DNA of 64,000 nt, taken from contig CP059070.1 in the NCBI GenBank assembly GCA_017798125.1, forward strand, positions 1,674,001-1,738,000. Direction: 5' to 3'. Position numbers and translations under genes: made by a program. Source of the stretch: Cryomorphaceae bacterium. Its GTDB lineage: Bacteria; Bacteroidota; Bacteroidia; Flavobacteriales; ECT2AJA-044. This document shows, piece after piece, positions 2,430 through 6,554 of this stretch. The number at the start of each line of letters is the position of its first letter. Within the stretch, counting starts at the first letter, position 1. Below the pieces are notes generated by a model. The model did not search any database. It was given only the letters and a program-made list of their open reading frames with translations, and had not been told where the DNA came from.

Positions 2430-3167
2430 ATGAATTTATTAGACATTGTAGCCATTCCCAAAGATGATCCAGTAGCGTTTACATTCTTTACTGGATACAT
2501 GGCCATGCTGGCCGCTTCCGTATTCTTCTTCTTCGAGCGTGGAAGAGTGGATGGCAAATGGAAACTCTCCTTGTTGGTGTCCGGTTTGATTACCGGTATC
2601 GCAGCGGTACATTACTACTACATGCGCGATTACTACATGGCCACAGGGGAGAATCCAACTGCCTTGCGCTACATTGACTGGACACTCACAGTGCCCTTGA
2701 TGTGTGTCGAATTCTATTTGTTAACGAAGGCGGCCGGAGCCACCAAAAGCTTGATGTGGAAACTCATCGGAGCATCTGTTTGGATGTTGGTCACCGGATA
2801 CTACGGTGAGGCCTTTACCGATGGTTCTACGGGACACAGCGTATTGTGGGGTGCATTGTCCACCTTGGGATACCTCTATGTCTTGTACACAGCTTGGTTC
2901 GGTGAAGTAGCCAAATTAGCCGAGAATGGAGATGCTGTCGTGAAACGCGGTGTGCGCACCTTGGCTTGGTTTGTCCTTGTAGGATGGGCAATCTACCCTA
3001 TTGGATACATGTGTATGCCAGGAGGATGGCTTAACACCGGTTTAGGATGGACTTCTGAGAATGTAGACCTGTTCTACAATATCGCAGACGCCATTAACAA
3101 AATTGGATTCGGATTGGTCGTGTACGGAATTGCGACTTCATCCAGCAACGAAACAGCTACAGCGTAA
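2430..3167 (+). CDS. Proteorhodopsin, light-driven proton pump
   Basis: Seven-helix retinal protein of 245 aa that pumps protons out of the cell in light. Helix C carries RYIDW with Arg80, Asp83 (acceptor), Thr87 and Glu94 (donor), the DTE signature of proton pumps. Met91 sits at the spectral tuning position (105 in the gammaproteobacterial protein) and predicts green absorption. His61 partners Asp83 in helix B. Lys224 in helix G is the retinal Schiff-base lysine, with Asp220 as counter-ion. Gly141 (LWGALST, helix E) lies where bacteriorhodopsin has Trp138 and xanthorhodopsin Gly156, so the retinal pocket may be open to a carotenoid antenna. There is no cleavable signal peptide, as usual in flavobacteria. 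A strong terminator follows and carotenoid genes lie next door; no retinal synthase (blh) is in the window. Confidence 0.98.
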   Translation: MNLLDIVAIPKDDPVAFTFFTGYMAMLAASVFFFFERGRVDGKWKLSLLVSGLITGIAAVHYYYMRDYYMATGENPTALRYIDWTLTVPLMCVEFYLLTKAAGATKSLMWKLIGASVWMLVTGYYGEAFTDGSTGHSVLWGALSTLGYLYVLYTAWFGEVAKLAENGDAVVKRGVRTLAWFVLVGWAIYPIGYMCMPGGWLNTGLGWTSENVDLFYNIADAINKIGFGLVVYGIATSSSNETATA

Positions 3168-3194
3168 TCAGTTCATACCCGAGTAACCTGTTGC

Positions 3195-3225
3195 AAAGCC
3201 GTCCTCATCGAGGACGGCTTTTTTT
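3195..3225 (+). terminator. Rho-independent terminator after proteorhodopsin
   Basis: Perfect 12-bp inverted repeat (AAAGCCGTCCTC, loop ATC, GAGGACGGCTTT) running into a T tract. It separates the rhodopsin transcript from the carotenoid genes. Confidence 0.93.
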
Positions 3226-3266
3226 ATGGAACCCTAGGCCGTGAAATGCGTTACCTTGCCAAAGCC

Positions 3267-4769
3267 ATGAAGAACCCGCCCAAAAAAGCCCTCATTGTGG
3301 GCGCCGGAATCGCTGGAATCGCCACGTCTATCCGACTGCGGAAGCTCGGATACGAAGTAGATGTGCTGGAAGCCAACGATTATCCAGGTGGAAAGCTTAC
3401 GGCTTTTGACCAAGACGGTTTTCGGTTCGATGCGGGGCCTTCGCTCTTTACCTTGCCCTATCTCGTCGATGAACTCTTCGAATTGTGTGACGAGAATCCT
3501 CGCGATCACTTCAACTACCACGGAAAAGAGGTTGCCTGCCACTATTTCTGGGAAGACGGCACCTTTTTACCGGCATGGACGGATCGCTCTCGGTTTGCAC
3601 ATGAAGTAGAAGAGCGGTTGGAAGTGCCTGCGGCACGATTGTCTCGCCACCTTGAACACGCCCAGACCTTGTGGGACAGCACCAGTACGCTTTTTATGGA
3701 GCGCAGCTTGCATCGGCTCGAGACCTATTTAAGTCGGGAAACGCTGAAGGCCATGGTCAATCTGCACCGCTTGAACCTGTTGACCACCATGCACAAGGCC
3801 AACGAACGAGCCTTAAAGCACCCCAAGCTCACCCAGCTTTTTGACCGATACGCGACCTACAATGGTTCCAGTCCCTATTTGGCACCAGGGGTCATGAACA
3901 TCATACCCCACCTCGAGCATCACTTGGGTACGTATTATCCCGAGGGAGGCATGCACGAAATCACCATGTCCTTGGTTCGCTTAGCTGAGCGAATAGGAGT
4001 GCGTTTCACGTACCAATGCCCAGTGGAGCGTATCCGTGTGGAAAAGGATATGGCCGTTGGGGTAGAGGTAGCATCGGCCCGTGAGGGCCAGAAATTTATT
4101 CCCGCGGATGTAGTGGTCAGCAACATGGACGTGGTGCCTACCTATAGAAGGCTCATGCCCGAGCAAAAGGCCCCGGAGAAGACCTTGGCGCAACCGCGGA
4201 GCAGCAGCGCGCTGATTTGGTATTGGGGCATTAATCGGAGCTTTCCAGGCTTGGATTTACACAACATATTCTTCAGTGAGGATTACCAGACGGAATTTGA
4301 CTATATCTTCGAAAAAGGCAAGGTCTTTGAGGATCCTACGGTGTATGTAAACATCAGCAGTAAGGAAGATCCGAAAGACGCCCCAGAGGGAATGGAAAAT
4401 TGGTTCGTCATGGTGAATGTGCCCGGGAATACCGGTCAAGACTGGGACATGCTCATTGGGCAAACCCGGAATGCCGTTCTGAAGAAATTGAGCCGCATGT
4501 TGGGCGAAGATATCGAGTCGTTGATTACCAGTGAGTCTGTGCTTGATCCGATCAGTATTGAATCGAAAACAAGTTCGTATCAAGGTTCGCTGTACGGAGC
4601 TGCTTCGAATAATTCCATGGCCGCTTTTTTAAGGCATCCGAATTTTCATCGACGCATAAACGGGCTCTATTTCGCGGGAGGTAGCGCTCATCCCGGTGGG
4701 GGAATACCCCTGTGTTTATTGTCTGCAAGGATCACCGCTGATCTGGTTGAAAAAATTGAACGTCCATGA
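3267..4769 (+). CDS. crtD: CrtD-type carotenoid desaturase (1-hydroxycarotenoid 3,4-desaturase), FAD-dependent
   Basis: FAD-dependent oxidoreductase of the CrtI/CrtD family, about 500 aa. The N-terminus has the dinucleotide-binding motif VGAGIAGIA followed by EANDYPGGK, and the C-terminus has the family FAD motif (YFAGGSAHPGGG near 475-486). The segment FRFDAGPSLFTLP resembles flavobacterial CrtD rather than CrtI, whose equivalent reads FDMGPSWYWMP, and the next gene is cruF, its usual pathway partner. Together they would hydrate one psi end of gamma-carotene and add the 3,4 double bond, towards myxol or saproxanthin. I prefer the ATG at 3267, just before the nucleotide-binding fold; an ATG at 3246 would add seven residues. 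Phytoene desaturation itself must be encoded elsewhere if this is CrtD. Confidence 0.85.
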   Translation: MKNPPKKALIVGAGIAGIATSIRLRKLGYEVDVLEANDYPGGKLTAFDQDGFRFDAGPSLFTLPYLVDELFELCDENPRDHFNYHGKEVACHYFWEDGTFLPAWTDRSRFAHEVEERLEVPAARLSRHLEHAQTLWDSTSTLFMERSLHRLETYLSRETLKAMVNLHRLNLLTTMHKANERALKHPKLTQLFDRYATYNGSSPYLAPGVMNIIPHLEHHLGTYYPEGGMHEITMSLVRLAERIGVRFTYQCPVERIRVEKDMAVGVEVASAREGQKFIPADVVVSNMDVVPTYRRLMPEQKAPEKTLAQPRSSSALIWYWGINRSFPGLDLHNIFFSEDYQTEFDYIFEKGKVFEDPTVYVNISSKEDPKDAPEGMENWFVMVNVPGNTGQDWDMLIGQTRNAVLKKLSRMLGEDIESLITSESVLDPISIESKTSSYQGSLYGAASNNSMAAFLRHPNFHRRINGLYFAGGSAHPGGGIPLCLLSARITADLVEKIERP

Positions 4770-5395
4770 CCGTAAAGGCCAAGCGCTCCATAATTGTCCT
4801 CATCATCCTCCACGTTGTGGGAATTCTCGGTATGCTCAGTCCGCTGAAGCACTGGTTTGTCGCATTGACGCCGGTGAACCTGCTCATCACGGCGGGCTTG
4901 CTTCTTTGGAATCACCGCGAATTCCGGTTGAGTACCGCGTGGATGCTCTTGTTGGCTTATTTTGTTGGTTTGGGGGTCGAAATCATCGGAGTAGCTACTG
5001 GCGCCATATTCGGGGAGTACAAGTACGGTATTGTGCTCGGTCCAAAACTGGCCGGTGCGCCTATGGTTATCGGGGTCAACTGGGTCATTTTGCTCTTCGC
5101 ATCCGGAGAGCTGGCCCGATGGATGTTTCGCTGGGTGGGTTGGCGTATGATTGCCGGAGCCTTCAGCATGGTACTCCTCGATATTCTCATTGAACCCGTG
5201 GCTATTTCCCTGGAATGGTGGGCGTGGACCCGCGGAGTGCCACCACTTATGAACTATGTCGGCTGGTTCCTCGTTTCGCTTTCATTGCATGCCGTATATG
5301 CTTGGACACTGCGCGATCAGCGCAATGATATTGGCTCAGCGGTATTCGCCATTCTCTTTGGCTTTTTCGTATTGCTTAATATTGCGTTGGTATGA
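4766..5395 (+). CDS. cruF: CruF-like carotenoid 1,2-hydratase (DUF422 membrane protein)
   Basis: Polytopic membrane protein, 209 aa, with about six or seven hydrophobic helices, of the DUF422 carotenoid biosynthesis family. CruF adds water across the 1,2 double bond of an acyclic carotenoid end. Family-like features are the GVEIIGVATGAIFGEYKYG segment near 70-88 and LLDILIEPVA near 140. Its ATG overlaps the crtD stop by 4 bp (ATGA), as do the next two junctions, so the four carotenoid genes are probably translationally coupled. The pairing with crtD supports a monocyclic 1-hydroxy product. Confidence 0.83.
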   Translation: MTVKAKRSIIVLIILHVVGILGMLSPLKHWFVALTPVNLLITAGLLLWNHREFRLSTAWMLLLAYFVGLGVEIIGVATGAIFGEYKYGIVLGPKLAGAPMVIGVNWVILLFASGELARWMFRWVGWRMIAGAFSMVLLDILIEPVAISLEWWAWTRGVPPLMNYVGWFLVSLSLHAVYAWTLRDQRNDIGSAVFAILFGFFVLLNIALV

Positions 5396-5868
5396 CCACG
5401 GCTCTCTACATCTTGATTTTTCTCGCCACCTTCTTTGGAATGGAGTTCATGGCGTGGTTCACGCATAAGTATGTCATGCACGGCCCGCTTTGGGTACTGC
5501 ACAAGGACCACCACCAACACGAACCAGGATTCTTTGAGAAGAATGATGCCTTCTTCCTCATTTTTGCCGTGCCCAGTTGGCTCGGAATTATGCTGGGACT
5601 GATGTATCAGCAGTATTGGGCAGTTTACATGGGCGCGGGTATCGCGGCCTATGGATTCACGTATTTCATGGTACACGATGTGTTTATTCACCAGCGATTC
5701 AAGTGGCTACGCCGATCGGATCATCCGTATTGGCGCGCCATCCGCAAAGCGCATAAAGTACACCACAAGCACCTCAATAAGGAGCATGGCGAATGCTTTG
5801 GCATGCTGGTGGTTCCCATTAAGTACTACCGCGAAGCGTTTCGCTACGTCCAAGCACAAAAGAAATGA
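5392..5868 (+). CDS. crtZ: Beta-carotene 3-hydroxylase CrtZ
   Basis: Membrane di-iron hydroxylase of the fatty-acid hydroxylase superfamily, 158 aa, which puts 3-hydroxyl groups on beta-ionone rings (beta-carotene to zeaxanthin, or the ring of myxol-type carotenoids). The histidine clusters are visible: HKYVMH near 24-29, HKDHH near 37-41, HDVFIHQ near 90 and HKVHHKH near 121-127. Four hydrophobic segments surround them. The start overlaps the cruF stop as ATGA. Its product is the class of hydroxylated carotenoid reported to serve fenestrated proton-pumping rhodopsins, which makes its position beside the rhodopsin notable. Confidence 0.93.
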   Translation: MTTALYILIFLATFFGMEFMAWFTHKYVMHGPLWVLHKDHHQHEPGFFEKNDAFFLIFAVPSWLGIMLGLMYQQYWAVYMGAGIAAYGFTYFMVHDVFIHQRFKWLRRSDHPYWRAIRKAHKVHHKHLNKEHGECFGMLVVPIKYYREAFRYVQAQKK

Positions 5869-6554
5869 ACGAGCACTATTACTATCTGCTCATCAATCTT
5901 TTCACCATTAGTGTGCCTTTGATTCGGAGCTTTGAGCCCCGCATCCACTATGCCGGCAGTTTTAAAGAGCTCTTCGCGGGAATTGGCATCACAGGTACCA
6001 TCTTCATCGTATGGGACGCCATCTTCACCGCTCGCGGCGTTTGGGGTTTCAATCCGCGCTACTTAAGCGGAATCGAGGCCTTTGGATTGCCCCTAGGAGA
6101 GTGGCTCTTCTTTGTGACCGTGCCTTTTTCGTGCGTGTTCATCTACCGCGTTCTCAATTACTTTTTTCCGGCTGACCCTGCGGGTCGATGGTCGCGTTCC
6201 CTGACCCAGTTCCTCATCTTCTTCTCGCTGGCCTTGGCTCTTTCCAATACCGATAAGGCCTACACCTTTTGGACCTTTCTGCTCTTGGGGCTGACCCTCG
6301 GTGCCTTATACTACTATGGTGCAACGCACTTGGCATATTTCTACAGGGCCTACGCCGTGATCTTGATTCCCTTTCTCATCGTTAACGGGATTCTGACCGG
6401 AACCGGTATAGAAGAGCAAATTGTTTGGTACAACGACGCTGAAAACTTGGGTCTGCGCATTGGGACCATTCCAGTGGAGGATACCTTTTACGGCATGCTC
6501 CTGATCCTCGGTGTGGTCACCATCTACGAATACCGATTGCGGGCTCGTTCCTGA
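5865..6554 (+). CDS. crtYcd: Lycopene beta-cyclase, fused CrtYc-CrtYd type
   Basis: Integral membrane cyclase of 229 aa with six or seven helices, made of two tandem CrtYc/CrtYd-like halves; each half is about 100 residues. It closes psi ends of lycopene into beta rings. Conserved segments include FKELFAGIGITGTIFIVWD in the first half (near 25-45), a PLGEWLFF helix, and PVEDTFYG near 205 in the second. This fused form is typical of Bacteroidota. It is the last gene of the coupled chain crtD-cruF-crtZ-crtYcd (ATGA overlap with crtZ). crtB, crtI and blh are not in the window. Confidence 0.9.
   Translation: MNEHYYYLLINLFTISVPLIRSFEPRIHYAGSFKELFAGIGITGTIFIVWDAIFTARGVWGFNPRYLSGIEAFGLPLGEWLFFVTVPFSCVFIYRVLNYFFPADPAGRWSRSLTQFLIFFSLALALSNTDKAYTFWTFLLLGLTLGALYYYGATHLAYFYRAYAVILIPFLIVNGILTGTGIEEQIVWYNDAENLGLRIGTIPVEDTFYGMLLILGVVTIYEYRLRARS

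Follow-up and report, generated by a model that had tools for sequence, protein, structure and literature searches.

Carotenoid antennae containing lutein and zeaxanthin have been described for the proteorhodopsins KR1 (from Dokdonia eikasta) and EINA29G6 and for the xanthorhodopsin Kin4B8 (Chazan et al. 2023, as summarized in PMC12308411); for KR1 and EINA29G6 the summary mentions no monocyclic pigment. In their study of rhodopsin-binding carotenoids, Fujiwara et al. (2024 preprint; Nat Microbiol 2025, 10:2603), as cited in PMC11855829 and PMC13093654, identified myxol and zeaxanthin in Nonlabens marinus, and the title of that study stresses photocycle acceleration. N. marinus makes 58 mol% zeaxanthin, and N. 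spongiae and N. arenilitoris make 90 to 97% myxol (PMC11855829). Both N. spongiae and E. coli produce myxol with the set CrtB, CrtI, CruF, CrtD, CrtA-OH, and CrtZ plus a cyclase (PMC11855829), and a proteorhodopsin together with myxol-type carotenoids has already been reported for Schleiferia thermophila (PMC4148732). An earlier note on this DNA suggested that an antenna made from a CruF/CrtD product would be undescribed; as the citing papers present it, the N. marinus study pre-empts this. Pumps and pigments of these types are already known from related bacteria, and in this respect the locus is an ordinary, if good, example.

The window analyzed here, 64,000 nucleotides in length, covers positions 1,674,001 to 1,738,000 of a 2.84 Mb genome that consists of a single contig and whose relatives place it in the Flavobacteriales. 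Its open reading frame at 2430 to 3167 (plus strand, 245 amino acids) matches PF01036 in a Pfam profile search (147.9 bits, 4e-43), gives no match in a PHROGs scan, and is the sole rhodopsin in the genome. Alignment places D83, T87, and E94 (the DTE motif) and the Schiff-base lysine K224 as in a proton pump. The green/blue tuning site, where Leu or Met rather than Gln marks green-absorbing proteins, is occupied by Met91, which is invariant in the alignment of 11 sequences. Since Met91 lies at the position of Leu105 in green proteorhodopsin, we assign the protein to the green-absorbing type, and it is predicted to be a proton-pumping proteorhodopsin of the Bacteroidota clade. The best PDB matches were entries 9jou and 9jov (E ~1e-77; 55.8% identity over the alignment), which the PDB names simply Proteorhodopsin and which we take to be NM-R1 of Nonlabens marinus. 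NM-R1 belongs to the same clade and has the same pump motif and the fenestration glycine (Gly142), and its host makes myxol and zeaxanthin, as predicted for the present cell. It differs in carrying Gly146 where the window rhodopsin has Thr145 and in its loop residues, and its gene, unlike that in the window, does not adjoin crtD. Fujiwara et al. reportedly included myxol bound to NM-R1.

Gly141 (codon 2850 to 2852, plus strand; in LWGALST) aligns in MAFFT with xanthorhodopsin Gly156, Kin4B8 Gly153, NM-R1 Gly142, and bacteriorhodopsin Trp138; the xanthorhodopsin and bacteriorhodopsin references were identical to PDB chains at every residue. The position of xanthorhodopsin Gly156 is thus occupied by a small residue, as the earlier note had proposed, and not by the bulky one it had named as counterevidence. 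Green proteorhodopsin has Phe at this site, and two solved proteorhodopsins outside this clade have Phe and Trp. The glycine is invariant in the 11-sequence alignment and in all 109 distinct Bacteroidota homologues covering the site (taken from genomes of the order, genomes with the CrtY-Blh fusion treated below, and 80 named public-genome loci), a sample that was picked by similarity to the window rhodopsin and so describes this clade only. Genomes without CrtD are included, and the same glycine is found in all Bacteroidota proteorhodopsins of an independent study's set (PMC13043013). Such invariance rules out a small residue placed there by chance. Because it is present in every homologue, the fenestration glycine is a clade trait that says very little about this particular locus, and by itself it is no proof of carotenoid binding.

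The carotenoid pocket of Kin4B8 includes Thr157, Tyr204, Ser208, and Tyr209 (PMC13093654). Thr157 and Tyr204 are kept in the window rhodopsin as Thr145 and Tyr193, whereas the anchors Ser208 and Tyr209 are replaced by Pro197 and Gly198 in a gapped, poorly aligned loop. Kin4B8 and the Salinibacter xanthorhodopsin share with the window rhodopsin the fenestration Gly and the pocket Thr and Tyr, but they are only 32.5% and 29.9% identical to it and belong to a different rhodopsin family, and salinixanthin, the pigment of xanthorhodopsin, is a 4-keto carotenoid. Given the homology to its relatives, carotenoid binding by the window rhodopsin is plausible and probable.

Downstream of the rhodopsin, on the same strand, lie four carotenoid genes: crtD at 3246 to 4769 (1-hydroxycarotenoid 3,4-desaturase; NF042421, 702.8 bits against a cut-off of 500), cruF at 4766 to 5395 (carotenoid 1,2-hydratase; PF04240, 87.9 bits, and below the cut-off of TIGR03460), crtZ at 5392 to 5868 (a His-box protein assigned as beta-ring 3-hydroxylase), and crtYcd at 5865 to 6554 (a fused heterodimer-type lycopene cyclase; PF18916 in two stretches, and TIGR03462). 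CrtZ had no match in Pfam or NCBIfam and was assigned by tblastn and syntenic homologues; plasmids of Pantoea ananatis carry a hydroxylase-family gene to which it is 42% identical, Paracoccus plasmid genes match it as well, and it is conserved in 33 of 37 relatives. Each gene overlaps the next by 4 bp, which indicates a tight operon. The rhodopsin stop codon is 78 bp from the crtD start and 3.39 kb from the end of crtYcd; the gene families, strand, and distances given in the earlier note are thereby confirmed.

An intrinsic terminator is predicted at 3195 to 3221 (plus strand), with a perfect 12-bp stem, a 3-nt loop, and a T tract, and the hairpin folds at −20.1 kcal/mol (z −6.0 against shuffles). 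A generic terminator scan gave terminator-like sites equally often in shuffled and real sequence, but no other site in the region came near this stem length. Because this strong terminator precedes crtD, the rhodopsin most likely has a transcript of its own, separate from that of the crt operon; read-through is possible. Among 80 other named proteorhodopsin loci, a rhodopsin directly precedes a crt cluster at just one, so adjacency as a conserved antenna operon was ruled out. At that locus (L122:579-8152, Flavobacteriales MAG UBA10329), blh is divergent from the rhodopsin, and crtI-crtB-crtD-cruF-crtZ-crtYcd follow.

We also searched a congener (G001), a 97% complete draft of 140 contigs in which the rhodopsin's place lies inside a contig. 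Neither a rhodopsin nor CrtY-Blh was found in this 97% complete genome, and it retains crtD-cruF-crtZ-crtYcd (72 to 87% identity) behind a homologue of the window open reading frame at 1761 to 2339. The interval between this homologue and crtD is filled by an unrelated open reading frame of 224 amino acids (L191:716-1642). This pattern indicates a joint loss or gain of the pump and the retinal enzyme, with the pigment operon staying in place. Since the operon is kept where there is no proteorhodopsin, its pigment must be of use even where the pump is absent, for example in photoprotection. As the congeners share the pigment operon and only one has the pump and retinal enzyme, they offer a natural comparison that could separate a light-harvesting role of the pigment from a protective one. 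The earlier note had taken adjacency as a pointer to an antenna; the clade-wide glycine, the terminator, and the operon of the congener all weaken that reading, and neither Gly141 nor adjacency gives evidence of binding that is specific to this genome.

The rest of the carotenoid pathway is dispersed over the genome. Genes for CrtI and CrtB lie about 22 to 24 kb before the window start, next to a CarH-like MerR gene and an IPP isomerase gene and, slightly further, a photolyase-like gene; CrtI scores above the NF058655 cut-off (bifunctional phytoene desaturase/3,4-desaturase). This crtI-crtB-idi stretch (L032:5280-14254) also encodes the CarH-like MerR/B12-binding regulator, a PAS protein, the photolyase/cryptochrome-like protein, and, as read from the sequence, a likely ECF-type sigma factor; it has the look of an island that responds to light. 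A CrtA-type gene was found outside the window at 1,331,210 to 1,331,893 and is 39% identical to one beside a crtY-cruF-crtD-crtZ-crtB-crtI cluster in another genome of the order. The gene set for myxol (CrtB, CrtI, cyclase, CruF, CrtD, CrtA-OH, and CrtZ) is therefore complete in the genome, with CruF and CrtA assigned by family, as both fall below the NCBIfam equivalog cut-offs. In N. spongiae and strain P99-3 the same set is clustered and accompanied by CrtY, whereas here it is spread over several sites and the operon cyclase is CrtYcd. The earlier view that 3-hydroxylated, monocyclic carotenoids can be made is supported by these genes, and the CrtA-type gene sharpens the predicted end product to myxol, which is the likeliest pigment, with zeaxanthin a possible second.

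Taken together, we consider it moderately probable that a green-tuned pump of this clade, with an open retinal pocket, works in a myxol-making cell and holds a 3-hydroxy-beta ring in the Gly141 fenestration, gaining blue-light transfer, a faster photocycle, or both. CrtYcd, CrtZ, CruF, and CrtD of the window, together with CrtA-OH, would form the pigment arm leading to myxol, and the cell would probably make some zeaxanthin as well. The 3-hydroxy-beta ring, which is common to both, would most likely lie in the fenestration beside the retinal ring, and the bound carotenoid would hand over energy from blue light, make the photocycle faster, or both, as citing papers report for the Nonlabens system. 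With this locus, the known carotenoid-ready proteorhodopsins gain another Flavobacteriales lineage.

The window rhodopsin could instead be a retinal-only pump with a glycine inherited as a clade feature, next to an operon making photoprotective myxol as a membrane antioxidant, the adjacency being due to chance or loose co-regulation. We regard this as unlikely, even though it accounts for a glycine that is present whatever the neighboring genes, for the terminator between rhodopsin and crtD, for a crt operon that is kept without a proteorhodopsin in the congener, and for a xanthophyll cluster that adjoins just 1 of 80 other proteorhodopsin loci. The related fenestrated flavobacterial pumps KR1 and EINA29G6 bind hydroxylated carotenoids, according to the summary in PMC12308411, as does the pump of Fujiwara et al. 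according to citing papers, and the lasting conservation of the glycine throughout the clade speaks for some function. It is also rather doubtful that zeaxanthin is the bound carotenoid and myxol stays free in the membrane. Zeaxanthin is a demonstrated partner of Kin4B8 and KR1 (as summarized in PMC12308411), CrtZ with a bicyclizing cyclase could make some of it, and it amounts to 58 mol% in N. marinus; however, CruF and CrtD pull flux to the monocyclic product, myxol dominates in N. spongiae and N. arenilitoris, and the ring end is identical in the two pigments. Given the CrtA-type gene of the genome, saproxanthin, which lacks the 2-hydroxylation, is a quite improbable main pigment in place of myxol: the window has no crtA and the CrtA-like protein scores 204 bits against an NCBIfam cut-off of 300, but CrtA of the Nonlabens-type cluster also falls below it (189 bits) and the congener has retained the gene.

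In the reading we favor, with a hydroxylated carotenoid at Gly141, retinal apparently comes from a separate enzyme. A single protein of the genome (647 residues; C1:354777-356720, equal to L033:6777-8720) matches the Blh family of beta-carotene dioxygenases, and does so in its C-terminal part, the N-terminal part being a CrtY lycopene cyclase (PF05834, 142.8 bits; PF15461, 106.2 bits). It passes the TIGR03753 cut-off and lies about 1.32 Mb from the window rhodopsin. This CrtY-Blh fusion would provide a predicted one-protein route from lycopene through beta-carotene to retinal. Full-length homologues with 37 to 41% identity were found in 12 other genomes of the order (one ends at a contig edge), and all 12 have a rhodopsin, mostly adjoining the fusion in divergent orientation. 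A CrtY-Blh-type open reading frame is also near 13 of the 80 named Bacteroidota rhodopsin loci, some of these 13 belonging to the 12 genomes of the order and some to other Bacteroidota MAGs. In a tree, the CrtY halves of the fusions form one clade, in which the only unfused-looking members are from loci cut at edges. Among 13 aligned fusions, Asp140-Ser141-Arg142 and Glu205 are invariant in the CrtY half and six histidines (417, 467, 499, 572, 579, and 635) in the Blh half, and with these residues kept both halves look active.

Of the 13 genomes with a fusion, 12 (among them the present one) also encode a CrtYcd, which fits a split in which pigment and retinal each have their own cyclase. Judging from the fusion, the making of retinal may be separated from that of pigment in many Bacteroidota. 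The fusion lies outside the window and is the part of this work that is new to us, as a literature search for a bacterial CrtY-Blh fusion found no description in the papers covered; a related four-domain CrtI-CrtB-CrtYcd-Blh protein is known from a protist (PMC10016063). We infer from the genes the identity of the pigment, its binding, its effect by energy transfer or on the photocycle, and the division of labor between the cyclases. The fullest version, in which myxol, a monocyclic triol, is the main and truly energy-transferring antenna and two lycopene cyclases are dedicated, CrtYcd to pigment and CrtY-Blh to retinal, is put forward tentatively and is not the likely outcome.

Two further genomes bear on the fusion and on retinal supply. 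In G224, locus L199:5046-9864 (its contig is apparently that of L137) has a CrtY-Blh fusion with a rhodopsin gene on either side and broken pieces of CrtY next to one of the two rhodopsin genes, as though a rhodopsin-crtY unit had been duplicated in tandem and had then decayed. In G024, which is 98% complete, a rhodopsin and Blh are present and no match to CrtI/CrtD or CrtZ was found, which reflects either an assembly gap or a source of carotene from outside.
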